Positions 4,719 to 58,036 of a stretch of DNA of 64,000 nt are shown in pieces. Source of the DNA: Firmicutes bacterium HGW-Firmicutes-14 (lineage in GTDB: Bacteria; Bacillota; Thermincolia; Thermincolales; UBA2595); the NCBI GenBank assembly GCA_002840275.1, contig PHAB01000005.1, forward strand, positions 1 through 64,000, given 5' to 3'. Position 1 is the stretch's first letter, and the number at the start of each line of letters is the position of its first letter. A model generated the notes under the pieces. It was not told where the DNA came from, made no database searches, and saw only the letters and a program-made list of their open reading frames with translations. The translations under genes and the position numbers were made by a program.

Positions 4719-6743
4719 ATGGCGAAAAACGGCTTTATTACTATTAAAGCAGATTCAATGAAAGAAGCGTTGGAAAAAGCCCGGATGCAGTTGAACACCT
4801 CAAAAGAAAACATAGAGGTAAAGGTGGTAGCTAAGGAAAAACACGGTTTTATTTTTCAGAAAGAAACGATCATAATAAAGGCCCGGAGAAAAGAACCGGC
4901 TTTGGAACAGTTGGTGGAAGATGTACTGAGTGGTCCGAAGGTTTACTCGGAGAATATTGAAAGTGTCGCGGACGGGTCGGTTGAAATTACTGAAGGAAAA
5001 ATAGTAGTAAAAAACCCACAATACGGCGGGAAGTATCCTAGTATTGAGCCGGGAGAAAATACTGCGGTGATTATAAACGGAGAACCAGTCTCAGAAGCAA
5101 CTATTATCAGCGCCGAGGATGATGTGAAAGTTAAGGCATTTAATCAGGAACCATACATTGAATTTGCTGTGGAAATTACTGATGATAAAATGAATGCCTT
5201 TTTGGTAGCGAAACGGCGGTTTGGCAGGGAATTTCGGGTTAAGGACTGCCCATCATGTTTAAACGCCAGGGTAAGAACCGAGACAGTTAAAGATGTCCCG
5301 CCACGAAAAATCTCTCCCCGCGAAGTTATCCAATTGTTAAAGGATAAGGGTATTATTTACGGTATCAATGAATCGGCTATGTCAAGGGTTGTGGAAAACA
5401 ATACTGAAGGTACGGTTAAGGTCTTGATTGCCGCGGGACAACCTCCGGAACCCAGTAAGGACGCTGTGATCGAATATGTTTTTGAAAAGAAGGAGGCATC
5501 TTCCGCTGAGACCCCTAACGCTTACAGGAAAATAGCAATTAAGTCTGTTGAGGTTGGCGAAGTACTGGCAGTAAAAAGCTCACCACAGGAAGGGGAAGCC
5601 GGCACAAACTTATTCGGTGAATCTATTGTCCCAAAACCGCCCGAGGATACTAAGATAATAATCGGTGAAGGGGTCAAACTGGTTAAAAATGAAACCGTGG
5701 CGGTTGCCGCTATCACCGGACGGCCTGTGTTGGAAGGAAGGAAGATTAAGATATTAAAAGTTCTGCCCATTTACACGGTAGACGGAGATGTGGATATAAG
5801 TGTCGGTAACATCAATTTTAAGGGAGATGTTTTGGTTTATGGCAATGTATTGGAAGGATTTCGGCTTTGGGCAGGGGGAGACATTACAGTCCTCGGGAAT
5901 GTCATCCAGGCTAAACTGAATGCCGGGGGGAATATCATTATTCATAATAATGCTCTCAGCAGCGAGCTTAACGCCGGAGGTACGGTCCTGATTTATAAAA
6001 GGTTGATACCGGATTTGAAGCATATATCTTCATTGACTCACAATCTATTGAAAGCCATGCAGTTATTAAAGACCAACCGTTCTTTCAAAATCAACACCCC
6101 GCAACAGGGAGAAGGACAACTCATACAGTTGCTTATTGACAATAAATTTAACATGATCCCAAAGTTGATTAAAGAGGTATTTGAAATTATTAATAACAGC
6201 GAGAGCGCCCTGATACCCGAAGTGATAGAAGCTATGAACCAATTGCAGAAACTGACCGGTCTTAATCCTTTAAGAATTCAAAAGGGACAAGAGGTATTTG
6301 ATATCATAAGGACACTTGAAGTGATTGTAGGGAAGTTACAGGAGAACTGTGAATTAAACGAACCTTCCAATGTAACTGCAAATTATATCCAGAACTCCGC
6401 AGTTAAAGCGAGTGGTGATATAATAATTACCGGCCAGGGTGTCATTACTTCCGAATTATTGGCCGGAGGCGATATTAATGTCAACGGCCAGAGAGCTGTA
6501 GTCAGAGGAGGGAAACTTAGCGCCGGTGGAACAATAAGGGTGAATGAACTGGGGTCTAATGCAGACGTAATTTGTATTGTCAAATTAAGTGAAGGGTCTG
6601 TATTGGAAGCGCAGTTGGTGCATCCGGCAGTTACCATTGAATCCGGCAGCGGTAAATACCAATTTAACGATTTATCAAGATGTGTCAGGGCATATATTTC
6701 TCCACAAAAGAAGTTGGAAATTGAGAAATTAAAAGCTAAATAA
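4719..6743 (+). CDS. fapA: FapA / DUF342 beta-helix protein
   Basis: ATG 4719 is preceded by GAGAGGTG; the upstream GTG 4707 lies within that site. The 674-residue protein has an N-terminal Jag/KH-like segment (about 1-55), a FapA N-terminal domain, and a DUF342 region rich in short Gly-Asp/Asn repeats (DVLVYGNVLEGF, AGGDITVLGNV, AGGDINVNGQ) characteristic of a beta-helix. A helical insertion of about 130 residues (about 430-560) interrupts it. FapA family members are linked to flagellar assembly and polarity in Vibrio; the role in Firmicutes is not established. Its place inside a partner-switch operon suggests that surface or motility functions are an output, which is inference. Confidence 0.85.
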   Translation: MAKNGFITIKADSMKEALEKARMQLNTSKENIEVKVVAKEKHGFIFQKETIIIKARRKEPALEQLVEDVLSGPKVYSENIESVADGSVEITEGKIVVKNPQYGGKYPSIEPGENTAVIINGEPVSEATIISAEDDVKVKAFNQEPYIEFAVEITDDKMNAFLVAKRRFGREFRVKDCPSCLNARVRTETVKDVPPRKISPREVIQLLKDKGIIYGINESAMSRVVENNTEGTVKVLIAAGQPPEPSKDAVIEYVFEKKEASSAETPNAYRKIAIKSVEVGEVLAVKSSPQEGEAGTNLFGESIVPKPPEDTKIIIGEGVKLVKNETVAVAAITGRPVLEGRKIKILKVLPIYTVDGDVDISVGNINFKGDVLVYGNVLEGFRLWAGGDITVLGNVIQAKLNAGGNIIIHNNALSSELNAGGTVLIYKRLIPDLKHISSLTHNLLKAMQLLKTNRSFKINTPQQGEGQLIQLLIDNKFNMIPKLIKEVFEIINNSESALIPEVIEAMNQLQKLTGLNPLRIQKGQEVFDIIRTLEVIVGKLQENCELNEPSNVTANYIQNSAVKASGDIIITGQGVITSELLAGGDINVNGQRAVVRGGKLSAGGTIRVNELGSNADVICIVKLSEGSVLEAQLVHPAVTIESGSGKYQFNDLSRCVRAYISPQKKLEIEKLKAK

Positions 6744-34126: not shown

Positions 34127-34215
34127 CGGAACGCCATTGTTACCGGGCGCTTTTATCCTGCATGTTAATTATTGACATTTGCTCAGAAGTTCAATATAAT
34201 ATTAATAATTAAATA

Positions 34216-34405
34216 AATTGGTTTTAGGTGCCCTTAAATGGGAGAATAGGGAACCGGGTGTAAATCCCGGACGGACCCGCCACTGTAAAGTTTGAGCCGA
34301 TACCATGCCACTCCGTATAAAGGGGGAAGGGGTATTTAGGCAATGACACTGAGTCAGGAGACCTGCCTATAACCTGTTGGTGCAGCCTCGGGGTGAGGTG
34401 AACTG
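34216..34405 (+). promoter_or_regulatory. cobalamin riboswitch
   Basis: The conserved elements of a B12 riboswitch occur in order: GGTGCCC...GGGAATAGGG-type P3 region, GAACCGGGTG, the core CCGCCACTGTAA, and a 3' segment with GTCAGGAGACCTGCC. A terminator follows at 34419-34456. It should repress the downstream dehydrogenase / TrpD-like / 70-residue gene set when adenosyl- or other cobalamin is abundant. Confidence 0.93.
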
Positions 34406-36996: not shown

Positions 36997-37030
36997 AAGA
37001 GGTTCAGCATGGAGCTGAACCTCTTTTATT
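36997..37030. terminator. bidirectional terminator after the B12-regulated genes
   Basis: 12-bp perfect arms (36997-37008 and 37014-37025) with a 5-base loop, followed by TTATTATTT on the plus strand; it abuts the stop of the convergent lipoprotein gene. Confidence 0.88.
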
Positions 37031-38111
37031 ATTTCTCCAATATAGCCTTTAACGGGCGGAAATCAGCAAATTCGTTATACGGTTTGTCCGTATAACCGGC
37101 ATCGAAAATAAAGGTGTGCAGCTTTTTTACAAAGTCTTCATTAGGGTCATAGGTGATATGGAGTCCACTCCATTGACTGACAATTTCCTCCATCGGAGTT
37201 TGTTCATATTCGACTGCACCGACGATTTCTTTATAATAATAATCTAAAGTATCAGCGGCGAGCCGTGGTAATTCTGCCCTGTTCTCTTCAGCTGCGGCTG
37301 TTGCTTCGATATGGGTCTCCAGCATAATGTTAACTAAATCAGGCCAGTTTTCCAGAACATCGGTCCTGGCGTACAGCCAGACACTGGGAATTAACTCCCC
37401 GGCCGCATTGCCGTCATTTATTGCGAGCAATTTTTTTGCGTTGGGAAACCGTTCCGATAATTTTTGCTCTTCTTTGCTGCGGGCAATGATGGCATCGAAT
37501 TCACCGTTTCTAAACATCTCATAGAACTCCGCTAAATAGTCCTGAAACTTGATCTTTACTGTACCACCGACAGTCTCTGTGGAAAGCCCCGCTTTTGCCA
37601 GCTGCAAATTTAATAGCATTTCATGGGAATAGCTGTTGTTGACAATCCCGATGACTTTTCCGTCCAGGTCTTTAAGTTCTGAAATGTTTTCATTGACCAG
37701 CAGGATGGAACCTTCCTCTACGGCCTGGCTGCCTGCGATGATACGATAATTGTCTCCGGCGGCAAACTGTGAGGTTTCTGTAAAATAGGCAGTGAAATTG
37801 TTAATCGGGGTATATAGAAAATGAAATTTCCCTTCTTCCATCAAAGGACCCACATTATCCCTGCCGCGGGTGATTACCCATTCCACCTCATATCCGGATT
37901 CCCCGAAAGCCTTTTCAAACAGCTTTTTCTCACGGTTGATTAAAGCCTGGGGTGAGCCGCCGGTCATGGCGATGTAACCGATTTTAATCGTTTTCGGAGG
38001 TTCTGAGCCGTTGTTTGGTTTTGCCTGGCCCCCGCAACCGGTTAAAAGTGAAAGGGATAGCAATAACAGAGATAATAATAAAAGACTCAGTATAGCAGTT
38101 GTCTTTTTCAT
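37029..38111 (-). CDS. ABC-type substrate-binding lipoprotein (SsuA/NMT1-like)
   Basis: ATG 38111 with GGAGGAAGG upstream is preferred over an in-frame start 78 bases earlier. 360 residues. A signal peptide with a leucine-rich core ends in a lipobox LLTGCGG (lipidated Cys near residue 26). Then comes a periplasmic-binding fold (KTIKIGYIAMTGG; LKDLDGKVIGI) like those of sulfonate, nitrate or thiamine-precursor uptake systems. No permease or ATPase gene is adjacent, so the transporter is elsewhere or the protein works as a sensor. It is divergent from the decaheme cytochrome gene. Confidence 0.85.
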   Translation of the reverse strand: MKKTTAILSLLLLSLLLLSLSLLTGCGGQAKPNNGSEPPKTIKIGYIAMTGGSPQALINREKKLFEKAFGESGYEVEWVITRGRDNVGPLMEEGKFHFLYTPINNFTAYFTETSQFAAGDNYRIIAGSQAVEEGSILLVNENISELKDLDGKVIGIVNNSYSHEMLLNLQLAKAGLSTETVGGTVKIKFQDYLAEFYEMFRNGEFDAIIARSKEEQKLSERFPNAKKLLAINDGNAAGELIPSVWLYARTDVLENWPDLVNIMLETHIEATAAAEENRAELPRLAADTLDYYYKEIVGAVEYEQTPMEEIVSQWSGLHITYDPNEDFVKKLHTFIFDAGYTDKPYNEFADFRPLKAILEK

Positions 38112-38170
38112 AGAACCTTCCTCCATGTTATAACATATTTTCATTATGAGTTTATCAGGCTTAGCAAATC

Positions 38171-38190
38171 TCGTCAATAATATCGTCAAT
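38171..38190. repeat. TCGTCAAT direct repeat, 12-base period
   Basis: TCGTCAAT occurs at 38171-38178 and 38183-38190, about one helical turn apart, in the 281-base region between the lipoprotein gene and the cytochrome gene. It is a candidate regulator site for either. No clear -35/-10 pair is visible in the rest of 38112-38392. Confidence 0.35.
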
Positions 38191-38392: not shown

Positions 38393-41300
38393 ATGACTGA
38401 GAAAGTCAAAAGAGCCTATTCAAAACTTAACATTAAATTTAAAGTCTGCATCGTACTAAGCCTTGTTGCAATACTTCTGACAAGCTTTATCCTTATTGCC
38501 TCAGCGGGCAGCGGTATTAGTTTCAGCGGCCAGACACCGGCTGCGGGCACAATCACGGGGAACGCTGCACCGCTAATTTCGTTACAGGCCTCTGCTGAAG
38601 AGGGAACCATCGCTGCAGACGATGTTCAAATGGTTCTGAACGGGGCATCCGTTACTCCCGCTCTTTCCTTATCATCAGGCATCTATACTATTTCCCACAC
38701 CCCGGCACAAAAACTGGAGGACGGCTCCCAGTCTGTGTCTGTTAGCGTTTATGATACAATCGGAGGATTAAAAACAACAGACTGGAGTTTTACAGTGGAC
38801 GCGGCGCCAAAGGCGAGCAGTTGGTATCCCGCCAAGGGAAGTACGGTGACGGTTACTAACCCGAAGGTTTCTGTCTATGTCAAAGACACTTTTGATAATC
38901 TGAATGCCAACTCACTGGCCGTCAGACTTAACGGCGAACCTGTTGGAGCTGCCCTGCAATTTAAAGGCTACATTGATGCCTGCACCGAAACCTGGATTAT
39001 TCAGAGCTATAAAGAAGGAACAATCAGCTTAAATACGTCGGGTCTGCCGGAAGGCAATAATACTGTTGAAATAAGCATTGCCGACATTAACGGTAATGTT
39101 ATGGTTGAGACCTGGTCTTTCAAAGTGGACACCCTGCCCGTGTCAAGTAAATGGACTCCCGCCAAAGACAGCACCGTTACAACTGCCAGTCCCGCCATTT
39201 CACTATATGTTACTGCTAAAACGGAACTAAATAACCAGTCGGTAAACGCCAAACTTAACAGCGAACCTGTTGCCGCGACCCTGGAATATAAAGGCTATAT
39301 TGACAGCTGTACAGATACGTGGGTTATTCAGAGCTACAAAGAAGGGACGATTAAAATTAACCCATCTGGCCTTCAGGATGGTATTAATACCGTTGAAATG
39401 AGCATTGCCGACAATGCCGGTAACAGACTGGATGAAACATGGTCTTTCACCGTGGCGGAAACGCCGAAAATCACCGGCCTTTTCCCTGTGAACGGCAGTG
39501 AGAATGTCGCTGTGACAAAAGTATCTGCTATCATTAAGGATAATACCGCAGTGAACTGGGACGGTGTCAGGCTGTATATCAATAACAATGAAGTCAATTT
39601 TACCTACAATGAAGAAACCGGCGAGTTAACCGGCAACTATAACTTCCCCACCGGCAATCATCAGGTGAAGCTGGAAGCTGTTGATATGAACGGTAACAAG
39701 AGTACAGCCAACTGGAGCTTTGTTTCCAGTTCATCAGCTCCGGATCTCACCAAGCTTCAGTATTTCTCAAATGGTATGACGATTATTAACGGTATGTTGA
39801 AGTTTTCTGCCCAGTTGAACGATTCGGTAGATATAAACGATAATGTAACCCTCAAGCTTAACGGCGCTCCGCTGGACATGGACTTCAGGTTTAAGGGTTA
39901 TACAGATACATGCACTGACCAATACATAATTACATCAAGAAAAGAAGCCTATGTTTCATATGAAAAGAAAGTAATCGACGGTCAAAACCTTACCCTGGAG
40001 TTGTTTGCCGAAAATAAATACGGCTACAGCAGGACGTGGACCTGGACCTTTAATGTCCTGACTCCGCCCACCATAACTAACATAACTCCCGTGAAATACG
40101 GTGTGACTGAACTTCAGCCGGCTATTTCCGCAGTTATCGGTGACAATGACCATATTGCATCAATTGTAATGAAATTAAACGGAGTTGATGTTGATTATGA
40201 ATACGATCCCAATACCGGCAAGCTTACTTATATTCCTTCTGAACCATTGTCCAATGAGACCAAGTATACAGTCAGCCTGACGGCTGCCGACGGAATTGGC
40301 CTGACTGCCGACAGTACCTGGAAATTCATCGTGAACACATATCCTGATATGTATGACGGTAATGTAACCAGCTGCCAATCCTGTCACGAGAACCAAAACA
40401 ACCGGCCAAAGCCTAATGAGGCGATTCATCCCGGGCATCTTTTCCAGTTTGACAACCATTATGATTATTGCGACAGTTGCCATATATATATTACGGTACC
40501 TGATATCTGCAGCGGTTGTCACTCCGGGGAAGAAATTCCTGATCCATGGCCGCCGCACAATGAATATCCGGGCACAAAATATTCGCCAAAATACTATAAC
40601 ACTTCAGAACCGCTTAGGGTGACAACCAACAGGGAGGAATGGGACTGCATCATCTGTCACCAGCCCGGAGCGGGGACCAAGTCAGGATCTTCCTGGTGGA
40701 ATGCACCTCTGCTGAACAACCACGATATACCACAGCTCCACTTTGCACCGCTGACTCCGGATTCAGAGTCCTGCACTGAATGTCATGCCAGGTCGCTGAC
40801 CAGGGAGCACGCCAGGGAAGGGCGTGTTGATAAGAATGGCCAACCCATTACATGCTCAACATGTCATGATAGTACGGACCAATTAGTCGCAGGCGCTATC
40901 ACTGCTAAAGATACGAGCTGTACGGCCTGCCATGCAAATGCGGACCACGAGAGCTTACATGTTAGCAGTGTGGACACATACTGCGGAGAGTGCCACATTG
41001 GCTCCCTGACCTCGGAGCATTTGGACAATGCGGTAACCACGGGAACCAAGGGTTATAGCTGTCAGACTTGTCATGTGAGCACCAGAAAAGAAGTAACCAG
41101 GTCGATTGAGACCAGCAGGCGGAACTGTACCAGTTGTCATACCGAAGGCCACAATGTTTACTTCGCTGACGAAGTGCCGGATGACATCCCGCTCCACGAT
41201 TCCTTTAACTGGACCACACCCATGGAAGCGGAAATATTTGCCGGTGAAAACGGTGTGCCTGCAGATTATGTGAGCGGTCAGGTGGTAATGTCCAACAGGC

Positions 41301-41527
41301 GCTCAGATATGACTCAGGATAATATATGGAATTTCTATAATGACTTCTTGACATCAAATGGCTGGGAGCGTCTGTCTTACACGGTCTCGAATGATGGCCT
41401 GCGCTTCGTTGCAGAGTTTAATAAAGGAAGCCGTAATGTTTTAATAAACTTCTTCAACACTCCAAGCCGGACCGGTGAGGGCAGCCCCGTCCCGGCGGGT
41501 TATAGGCTTGAAATCTGGTATAATTAA
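38393..41527 (+). CDS. secreted decaheme c-type cytochrome with Ig-like repeats
   Basis: ATG 38393; 1044 residues. Signal peptide at about 16-40, then roughly 600 residues of Ig-like beta domains, three of which share a conserved core (GYIDACTETW, GYIDSCTDTW, GYTDTCTDQY). A heme region (about 661-916) holds ten CxxCH motifs, from CQSCH at 661 to CTSCH at 912. The last 115 residues form a domain I do not recognise (FYNDFLTSNGW, YRLEIWYN). There is no LPXTG or membrane anchor. Ten covalent hemes on an extracellular stalk suggest electron transfer across or beyond the wall, as proposed for Thermincola-type Gram-positive metal reducers; acceptor and localisation are inferred. Confidence 0.92.
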   Translation: MTEKVKRAYSKLNIKFKVCIVLSLVAILLTSFILIASAGSGISFSGQTPAAGTITGNAAPLISLQASAEEGTIAADDVQMVLNGASVTPALSLSSGIYTISHTPAQKLEDGSQSVSVSVYDTIGGLKTTDWSFTVDAAPKASSWYPAKGSTVTVTNPKVSVYVKDTFDNLNANSLAVRLNGEPVGAALQFKGYIDACTETWIIQSYKEGTISLNTSGLPEGNNTVEISIADINGNVMVETWSFKVDTLPVSSKWTPAKDSTVTTASPAISLYVTAKTELNNQSVNAKLNSEPVAATLEYKGYIDSCTDTWVIQSYKEGTIKINPSGLQDGINTVEMSIADNAGNRLDETWSFTVAETPKITGLFPVNGSENVAVTKVSAIIKDNTAVNWDGVRLYINNNEVNFTYNEETGELTGNYNFPTGNHQVKLEAVDMNGNKSTANWSFVSSSSAPDLTKLQYFSNGMTIINGMLKFSAQLNDSVDINDNVTLKLNGAPLDMDFRFKGYTDTCTDQYIITSRKEAYVSYEKKVIDGQNLTLELFAENKYGYSRTWTWTFNVLTPPTITNITPVKYGVTELQPAISAVIGDNDHIASIVMKLNGVDVDYEYDPNTGKLTYIPSEPLSNETKYTVSLTAADGIGLTADSTWKFIVNTYPDMYDGNVTSCQSCHENQNNRPKPNEAIHPGHLFQFDNHYDYCDSCHIYITVPDICSGCHSGEEIPDPWPPHNEYPGTKYSPKYYNTSEPLRVTTNREEWDCIICHQPGAGTKSGSSWWNAPLLNNHDIPQLHFAPLTPDSESCTECHARSLTREHAREGRVDKNGQPITCSTCHDSTDQLVAGAITAKDTSCTACHANADHESLHVSSVDTYCGECHIGSLTSEHLDNAVTTGTKGYSCQTCHVSTRKEVTRSIETSRRNCTSCHTEGHNVYFADEVPDDIPLHDSFNWTTPMEAEIFAGENGVPADYVSGQVVMSNRRSDMTQDNIWNFYNDFLTSNGWERLSYTVSNDGLRFVAEFNKGSRNVLINFFNTPSRTGEGSPVPAGYRLEIWYN

Positions 41528-41563
41528 CGGAAAAGGATAATTTGATAATTCGATACCAACAGG

Positions 41564-41598
41564 CAGGGCCGTTCAATAAAACGGCCCTGTTTTATTTC
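41564..41598 (+). terminator. terminator of the cytochrome gene
   Basis: CAGGGCCGTT (41564-41573) pairs with AACGGCCCTG (41580-41589), then TTTTATTTC. Confidence 0.9.
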
Positions 41599-48609: not shown

Positions 48610-48635
48610 TACAATTATTATATATATAGGATTCT

Positions 48636-48716
48636 GAATAAAGGCAAACTCGCTGAAAGGCGGGGGCGCAAAGCCATGGGTCTAAGGGTTTTATACTATG
48701 ATTGCCAGGCTGCCGG
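48636..48716 (+). promoter_or_regulatory. class I cyclic-di-GMP riboswitch (GEMM-I), copy 2
   Basis: It has the same core as the element at 119-203: AAAGGCAAAC, a P2 stem with GAAA loop (GCTGAAAGGC), GCGCAAAGCCATGGGTCTAA, and GATTGCCAGGCTGCCGG. A terminator follows at 48730-48763. It precedes a dCache chemoreceptor gene at 48811, so c-di-GMP controls production of a receptor. Confidence 0.93.
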
Positions 48717-48729
48717 AATAGGTTTTTTG

Positions 48730-48810: not shown

Positions 48811-51195
48811 ATGTTTAAGTGGGGTATTGCTAAAAAGCTTGTAACATCGGTTTTAGTTGCATTTTTCTTTGTTTTTACAATTACCGGATTTTTTGTATAC
48901 AGTAGAGTAAAGAAACAGATTGAACTCTCAACACAGCTTGAAAATAAAAACTTATCACAGAAGCTGGCCAAACAGGTTGAGGAATCACTGAATCAGGGGA
49001 TGACAATAGCGCGAACTTTAGCCAAAACAGTAGAGACAGATATTCGCGGGCCACGGCACCTTTCCAGAGACGATGTTATTCAAATCCTTTATACCGTTTT
49101 GGACAGCAACCCGGATCTTTTAGGGACTTATGTATGCTTTGAGCCCAACGCTTTTGATGACAGGGATAATCAATACAAATATGCCAATTATCACGATGCT
49201 ACCGGGAGGTTTATCCCGTATGTGAATAAACTTACCGGCAGCATGGCTATTGAGCCTCTTGTGGATTATGAAACAGAGGGAGCGGGAGATTACTACCTTT
49301 TACCCAGGAAAACAGGCCGGGAGCAAATTTTGGAGCCTTATCTGTATCAGGGAGTTCTATTAACTTCGCTGGTGGTACCGATAAAAGATTCCCGGGGCAA
49401 TTTTGTGGGTATAGCCGGAGTGGATGTGGGTCTTACTCAATTAGATTCAATGATATCCCAAATAAAGGTCCTGGAATCGGGGAACGCTTCTTTGGTAAGC
49501 AATAACGGGACTTATCTGTCTGATTCCAATAAAATAATGGTTGGATATTCCTCTCTGAAAGATATCAATGCAAAGGGTATAAGAAACGCATTTGATACCG
49601 GCCAGGCTTTTATTGTAGATAACCCAAACGAAGAAGATATTCAAAACATTGAACAGATTGAATCCCAAACGACTCCTCAAATGCAGGAAACGTACAGCCA
49701 ATTGACTGCTGAGGTGCTGGCAGGCAATTCGGGGATGATAGAATTACTGGATAGAGGCAGTAAAACTCTAAAATGGACATTTTATGAGCCGGTATTGATT
49801 GCCGGGACAAGCACTCCCTGGAGTCTCCTGGTTAATGTGCCTCCTGATGAAGCTCTTATTCCGTTAAATGCGGTTCTGAGAGACCTTGTTATTATAGCTT
49901 TAATAGCAATCATAGGTATATCGATAGCATTGATTTTGTTAATCCGGCGCTTAATGAGACCTATTGGTATGACTGTAAATATGCTGAAAGATATCGCCCA
50001 GGGTGAAGGTGACCTGACAAAAAGGATTACTATAACCTCAAAAGATGAATTCGGTGAACTTGCAGATTGGTTTAACCAGTTTATCGAAAAAATTGCTAAA
50101 ATGATAAATAAGATAAAATCTACCGGTGAATTAGTGGCTGCCAACAGTGAACAAATATCTGCGAATTCCATGGAGGCTTCTAAAGCAACTCAAAATGTGG
50201 CTGCCGCAATTGAACAGGTGGCTAAAGGTTCAGCAGAGCAATCACGCGGTGTTGCTGACACTGAAAAAATTGTAAGCCAAGTCACACAGGCTATTGAACA
50301 AATTGCCCTGGGCGCTCAGGAACAAAGTCGCAATGTTTTATCTACTACTTCACTGGTAAATGAGATGTCGGTAAGAATCAGTGAAGTGGCTGAAGGGATG
50401 CAGTCAGTGAAACAAATATCAGAACAGAACGGGGTCACAGCGGAAGATGGCGGTAAGGCCGTTGAACAGACGGTTAACGGAATGATCCAGGTAAAGAATG
50501 CAGTATTTGAAACAGCACAAAGACTCCATGAGCTTGGAGAACGGTCTCAGAAAATAGGAGAAATTATTGAGGTTATAGATGATATATCGGAACAGACCAA
50601 CCTGCTGGCTCTTAATGCTGCAATCGAGGCGGCCCGGGCAGGAGAGCACGGCAAAGGTTTTGCGGTTGTAGCTGATGAAGTAAGAAAGCTTGCTGAAAGA
50701 GCGGGTAAAGCAACAAAGGAAATAGCTGACCTTATTACTGACATTCAACGGGGGACTGAGGTTGCAGTCAGATCAATGCAGGTGGGGACAAAGGAAGTTG
50801 AAGAGGGGGTAAATCTTGCCCAGGCAGCCGGAAAATCTCTGGATGAGATAGTAGATGGTGTAAAAATGGCAGGAGACAATGTACAGAAAATTATGGGGAT
50901 AGTTAACCAAATCTTAAATATGAGCCAGGAAGTCTCAGAGGCAGTCAGCAATGTGGCAGCAATAACACAGGAAAATACGGCTGCGACAGAGGAAATAGCG
51001 GCTTCAACAGAGCAGGTGAATACCTCGGTACAAAACATTGCAGTTGTATCTGAACAAAATGCTTCAGTAGCTGAAGAAGTATCTGCTTCTTCTGAGGAAC
51101 TGACAGCGTCAATTGAAGAAATGTCTTCATCAAGCGAACAGATGGCCAAAATGGCACACGAACTATACAGTGTGGTGGCACAGTTTAAGGTGTAG
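48811..51195 (+). CDS. dCache-domain methyl-accepting chemotaxis protein
   Basis: ATG 48811 after GAGGTGG; 794 residues. Membrane helix 1 (about 10-32), a large extracellular dCache_1 sensor (about 40-345; [30 protein letters not shown]), helix 2 (about 355-380), HAMP (about 380-435) and a long signalling domain with the tip [16 protein letters not shown]. dCache domains bind small extracellular ligands such as amino or organic acids; the ligand here is unknown. Regulated by the preceding c-di-GMP riboswitch. Confidence 0.95.
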
Positions 51196-57916: not shown

Positions 57917-57935
57917 TAAGGAAACTTAAAAACCA

Positions 57936-58023
57936 ATTAGCTGGGGGTGCCGAAAGGCTGAGAGGAGATATGCCAACCCTTGGAACCTGATTTTCCGGGT
58001 AATACCGGCGGAGGGAAGCTAAC
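57936..58023 (+). promoter_or_regulatory. TPP riboswitch (THI element)
   Basis: All conserved pieces are present: GGGGGTGCC, GGCTGAGAGGAGATA, CCCTTGGAACCTGA, CCGGGTAATACCGGCG, GGAGGGAAGCTA. A terminator follows at 58037-58066. It should shut off thiSGH when thiamine pyrophosphate is plentiful. Confidence 0.97.
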
Positions 58024-58036
58024 CTTTTTTTAGGAT

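Follow-up and report, generated by a model that had tools for sequence, protein, structure and literature searches.

A probable surface electron-transfer cytochrome with ten hemes, an Ig-like stalk and a family-specific C-terminal domain in a Thermincola-like bacterium

How Gram-positive bacteria move electrons across a wall of 20–80 nm is an open question. The path published for Thermincola consists of a wire through the wall (CwcA) and one surface reductase (OcwA). OcwA (TherJR_2595 / Tfer_3193, PDB 6I5B) is a nonaheme reductase on the Thermincola surface (PMC6703420), and a set of proteins running from ImdcA (TherJR_1117, ten hemes) to CwcA (TherJR_1122, six hemes) has been published for the same genus (PMC7911101). 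Multiheme cytochromes with Ig-like domains are described from Dethiobacter alkaliphilus (DealDRAFT_1439 and others), and DealDRAFT_1439 is upregulated on ferrihydrite (PMC10376724).

The protein analysed here is encoded in a 64,000-nucleotide stretch of DNA, referred to below as the window. Its gene starts with ATG and encodes 1044 residues, in which six Ig-like units (residues ~41–650) precede a block of ten hemes and a further domain follows (Table 1). Exported multiheme cytochromes are as a general kind known already; the family described below, with an end domain of its own, is limited to one lineage. The reading that we favour, and consider probable, is that of a cytochrome exported to the wall or surface of a Thermincola-like Gram-positive bacterium for electron transfer, with ten bis-His hemes, an Ig stalk and a C-terminal domain that serves for docking.

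Table 1 Features of the decaheme cytochrome locus, in window coordinates.
Feature	Position	Strand	Basis or remark
NMT1/SsuA-like solute-binding lipoprotein gene, divergent	37029..38189	-	same place in all four orthologs
Ig-stalk decaheme c-type cytochrome	38393..41527	+	whole ORF; T. ferriacetica ortholog at L067 5925-8834
Signal peptide or N-terminal membrane anchor, aa 1–39	38393..38509	+	sequence, ortholog alignment
Ig-like unit 1, aa ~41–137	38513..38803	+	Pfam, ortholog alignment
Ig-like unit 2, aa 138–247, hairpin-tip C197	38804..39133	+	AlphaFold2, Foldseek
Ig-like unit 3, aa 248–356, hairpin-tip C306	39134..39460	+	
Ig-like unit 4, aa 357–448, short hairpin, without cysteine	39461..39736	+	
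Ig-like unit 5, aa 449–557, hairpin-tip C507	39737..40063	+	
Ig-like unit 6, aa ~558–650, Big_5	40064..40342	+	Pfam
Ten-heme head, CxxCH aa 661–916	40373..41140	+	motif count; ten conserved free histidines
H920, joint of head and C-terminal domain, likely distal heme ligand	41150..41152	+	family alignment
C-terminal domain, aa 924–1044, predicted β-α-β4	41162..41524	+	AlphaFold2; without Pfam family
Intrinsic-terminator-like hairpin, 13 pairs	41561..41592	+	after stop codon

The N-terminus has a hydrophobic core followed by the sequence ASA-G. This signal peptide looks cleavable, but cleavage is uncertain, and in the alignment the site is not strictly conserved among orthologs. Pfam identified Big_13 (three stretches, 3.6e-16), Big_5 and Cytochrome_C7, together with a borderline match to Mtrc-MtrF_II-IV (30.5 bits at a cut-off of 30). 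The Pfam scan found no S-layer or SLH domain, and no LPXTG tail was seen at the C-terminus. With no anchor motif and a signal peptide of cleavable appearance, the sequence does not account for retention at the cell, and this weighs against the favoured reading.

The earlier note had counted ten CxxCH motifs between residues 661 and 912, and this count holds. They start at residues 661, 693, 706, 752, 794, 821, 843, 864, 890 and 912; the mean in residue shuffles is 0.011. Outside these motifs exactly ten histidines are conserved in the four orthologs (679, 689, 722, 777, 783, 806, 852, 856, 876 and 920). Seven of them are kept in at least 14 of 16 family members, and H920 is present without exception in the 30 members aligned. 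One conserved free histidine per heme fits bis-His ligation throughout, as far as this can be read from sequence, and hemes that are all bis-His would point to a conduit rather than an enzyme of the OcwA type. Matches to ResB in the host genome indicate that a cytochrome c maturation system is present.

These histidines bear directly on the suggestion that the protein resembles OcwA or the octaheme enzymes in being a terminal reductase at the surface with a substrate of its own, such as nitrite, tetrathionate or sulfite. Enzymes are frequent among multihemes of this size from related bacteria, nitrite and hydroxylamine are both reduced by OcwA (PMC6703420), and paralogs of the window protein weakly match octaheme and DmsE models. 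However, a conserved free histidine for every heme would leave no heme obviously open, and the window protein matches neither the NrfA nor the HAO family; OcwA, by contrast, has high-spin hemes. We therefore regard a reductase as unlikely and retain the electron conduit.

The stalk was described in the earlier note as Ig-like repeats with the signature GYxDxCTDxW/Y. The repeats are indeed Ig-like units, but the signature is confined to three of the six, around C197, C306 and C507. AlphaFold2, run for unit 2 together with its sister repeats, predicts an Ig fold at pLDDT 88.8, in which a single cysteine sits at the tip of a long hairpin (strands 50–60 and 66–77); the best Foldseek match of this model is CopC (1.6e-4). 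On the Big_13 and Big_5 profiles and the Ig fold model, the window protein is a Big-domain protein. A match to the T9SS sortase PorU (NCBIfam), far below its cut-off, was rejected as Ig-domain similarity.

Disulfides formed by cysteines of the Ig repeats had been suggested. Within a unit they are excluded, because the cysteines sit singly at hairpin tips, with at most one per unit; they may be free thiols or link separate molecules. In the family proteins examined, 47 of the 70 pre-heme cysteines lie in D-x-C-[TSGD], and in many of these proteins the spacing of ~201–218 residues corresponds to every second Ig unit. Unit 1 of the window protein is missing at that place from the orthologs of T. 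ferriacetica, G007 and G008.

The C-terminal domain, of about 115 residues, was one that the earlier note could not place. For Pfam families and PDB sequences this stands: the last ~120 residues match nothing in either, apart from chance bromodomain hits in the PDB. A profile of the domain, however, gave weak matches in heme-free proteins, which led to a second set with a profile of its own. When the two profiles were compared by hhalign the probability was 96.5 and the score 56.9, whereas the maximum in 150 column shuffles was 17.8 and the reversed profile scored 16.7. The heme-free domain ('DIPxYP...YYxxxLxxxGW') occurs on clostridial multi-TM proteins and lipoproteins, and DUF6591 matches it only marginally. 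Judged by these profiles, the C-terminal domain belongs to an unnamed family of extracytoplasmic domains that is also found without hemes. Since its kin are heme-free, docking is the most parsimonious role, and the domain is probably a docking module that is not itself redox-active.

The structure prediction proposed in the same note was run with AlphaFold2 on two sequences, those of the window and of L067. It gives a β-α-β4 arrangement of medium confidence (pLDDT 64.6, core 70–83) without a fold match above background. The best hits of the fold search were 6td9 (Z 7.0), DcrB (6.1) and BamC (4.8), which lie in the usual background range, and Foldseek returned E-values of 0.06 or higher; a Mog1p/PsbP/DcrB-like or BamC-like fold is at best a candidate. 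PYR/PYL, SciW, KA1 and others also appeared in the fold search and were taken as common arrangements, not kin.

The same domain ends eight multiheme proteins in the window's own genome (3.65 Mb). Across the phylum there are about 50 such proteins with strong E-values, in 14 of 398 genomes; three further matches are weak. It closes the protein, in nearly every case ~12 residues past the last CxxCH, and is preceded by 8–14 hemes and by a stalk that ranges from none to more than 1000 residues. The stalk repeats are Ig domains of the Big_13 type or, in cluster II, of another type that by eye resembles the FlgD-type Ig. The nearest named relative of the window protein is from the Thermincola ferriacetica MAG L067 (found with a three-sequence profile; 72% across the hemes and C-terminal part), whose genome is of the same family as the window's and of a different genus. 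When a tree was built from the C-terminal domain together with the six hemes before it, the four window orthologs grouped at 100/100. No relative was found in the viral contigs searched, and no description of the family or its end domain in the literature and databases searched.

Two members depart from this plan. In L036 (6715-8625) a CxxCH-free insert of ~170 residues splits the heme run of a divergent member, and its C-domain tail has four cysteines. L091 (8675-10180; G002 C55) is apparently a broken remnant, with a short Ig ORF and, ~0.8 kb on, a C-domain ORF with one heme.

Conservation within the family also bears on a quite different function, in which the protein is mainly an adhesin or cell-contact protein, for example for mineral binding or partner contact, and carries heme incidentally. 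Ig repeats are frequent among adhesins, and the gene adjoins one for a solute-binding lipoprotein and then, in two Thermincola genomes, those for a chemotaxis receptor and a pentaheme lipoprotein. Yet the best-conserved part of the family is the hemes and their histidines, and several members are without any Ig domain. We consider this function very improbable, and an electron-transfer role accounts better for what is conserved.

Several clades of the tree keep a stalk length of their own across genera. The first heme is at residue ~38, 130, 245, 471, 660, 683, 862 and 914 in the eight paralogs of the window genome, and across genera the distance is 242–278 in the 245 clade, 836–884 in the cluster II clade and 29–60 in the stalkless 14-heme clade. 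In the window's clade it is 566–799, the differences being whole Ig units; the window protein has one unit more than that of T. ferriacetica. The paralogs could conceivably form a graded set, in which a conserved ten-heme head and docking domain are held on stalks of fixed length at successive depths of the wall and relay electrons outward in the absence of an outer membrane, although we put only a small chance on this.

Members of the family are often encoded close to OmcS/CwcA-like hexaheme genes, within 10 kb in 13 of 14 genomes and within 320 bp in 10; in eight of these 10 the member is on the same strand, directly downstream of the OmcS-like gene. Matches to an OmcS-like profile occur in 12 of the 14 genomes with the C-terminal domain and in 11 of the 384 without it, a difference that is inflated by shared ancestry. 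A family profile built from six of the hexaheme sequences matches OmcS (6ef8) at 5.8e-7; the profile is needed here, as a single-sequence search against the PDB found nothing.

Two gene arrangements recur. The first runs 10H-12H(NapC)-17H-TPR-NHL-6H-14H+C-domain-giant multiheme, where 10H denotes a ten-heme protein and so on, in G000, G004, G007, G008, G009 and partly G005. Because gene order and heme counts agree with the published set, we infer that it corresponds to TherJR_1117-1122. The second is 6H-8H-10H+C-domain. The giant multihemes, with 40 to 67 CxxCH, lie directly after the C-domain member of the first cluster in L035 (9465-13328), L073 (14166-19901), L095 (6957-14189) and L089 (10701-17045), and some run to the end of the stretch read. 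In L033, tandem c-di-GMP-I-GGC riboswitches (6009-6086 and 6165-6242) precede a transglutaminase-like gene and that genome's second multiheme cluster.

With this linkage in mind, the head might form polymers or cap filaments, joining OmcS-like filaments of the wall by contact through the C-terminal domain, with cross-links at the tip cysteines. This would suit the eight genomes with a same-strand member directly downstream of the OmcS-like gene, and the single hairpin-tip cysteine per Ig domain, mostly in every second unit. But most members adjoin no OmcS-like gene, and polymerisation is without structural support. The window gene itself adjoins no cytochrome gene, and the linkage holds for the family, not for this copy. 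A filament unit is accordingly an improbable reading, and we continue with that of a discrete electron-transfer protein.

Beyond the signal peptide, all regions of the window gene show purifying selection, with dN/dS values against the T. ferriacetica ortholog of 0.15 (Ig part), 0.17 (heme part) and 0.23 (C-terminal domain). On account of the terminator-like hairpin after its stop codon, it probably ends its transcript alone. No Rfam riboswitch precedes it. The divergent lipoprotein gene has no permease gene adjoining and recurs beside all four orthologs; any link to the cytochrome is putative. An ABC-F gene downstream of the cytochrome is also common to the ortholog loci.

In the two Thermincola genomes, genes for a Cache/HAMP chemotaxis receptor and a pentaheme lipoprotein come after the ortholog (L067 9027-11893 and L079 10411-13292). 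They are possibly a redox-taxis pair, and both are absent beside the window gene. Elsewhere in the window there are c-di-GMP-I riboswitches ahead of a chemotaxis receptor gene (48633-48717; gene 48811-51195) and at a GAF/HD-domain regulator gene (117-200; gene 185-2386), and ordinary cobalamin and TPP riboswitches (34209-34384 and 57933-58033).

For the window protein we infer heme loading, location, direction of flow, docking and acceptor as follows. It would be exported by Sec and loaded with ten hemes by machinery of the ResB type (system II). An Ig domain is about 4 nm long, and the string of six, ~25 nm if extended, would keep the head at a distance from the membrane or the base of the wall. 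Electrons would come from the menaquinol side via NapC-type and OmcS-like (CwcA) cytochromes, pass through ten bis-His hemes, none of them an open catalytic site, and go on to acceptors outside the cell such as minerals. The C-terminal domain would serve to dock the head, with the wall or a further envelope cytochrome as the probable partner. The proposal that such a protein carries electrons in a Gram-positive bacterium is partly sustained, as a fit of export, host and role in extracellular electron transfer, given the Thermincola-family genome, its ResB genes and the OmcS/CwcA-like linkage in 13 of 14 genomes.

With this family, the published wire and reductase are joined by a set of heads, of which one genome has eight and some are encoded directly beside the wire gene. 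The shared end domain makes the effect of its deletion, or its binding partner, testable, and provides a sequence marker by which such systems can be recognised in genomes without annotation.

Among known systems, OcwA has in common with the window protein the bacterial family, export, multiple hemes and a proposed role in electron output. OcwA differs in having nine hemes, two of them active-site hemes, in being NrfA-like and in lacking an Ig stalk and the C-terminal domain, in whose place it has a three-helix bundle (PMC6703420) as against the predicted β-α-β4. CwcA (TherJR_1122 / Tfer_0075), the proposed wall-crossing OmcS-like hexaheme, belongs to the same envelope pathway and in several genomes a family member is the next gene, but it has six hemes of the OmcS type and neither Ig units nor the C-terminal domain; the ten-heme window protein is not among the matches of the OmcS-like profile, and CwcA is likely a partner of the family, not a relative. 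Shewanella MtrC, OmcA and MtrF share ten hemes and β-rich domains, and the heme part is weakly similar by profile (3pmq at 2.8e-6 with a family profile). The window protein does not match the OmcA/MtrC family model (NCBIfam, E up to 1; second scan, E up to 0.1), and its string of Ig units ahead of one ten-heme block differs from their two pentaheme domains alternating with β-barrel domains. The clostridial heme-free domain is kin by profile, on proteins without hemes. The Dethiobacter multihemes are, like the window protein, Gram-positive-type multihemes of extracellular electron transfer with Ig-like domains, but in the reverse order, the Ig domain being C-terminal and the heme part MtoA-like.
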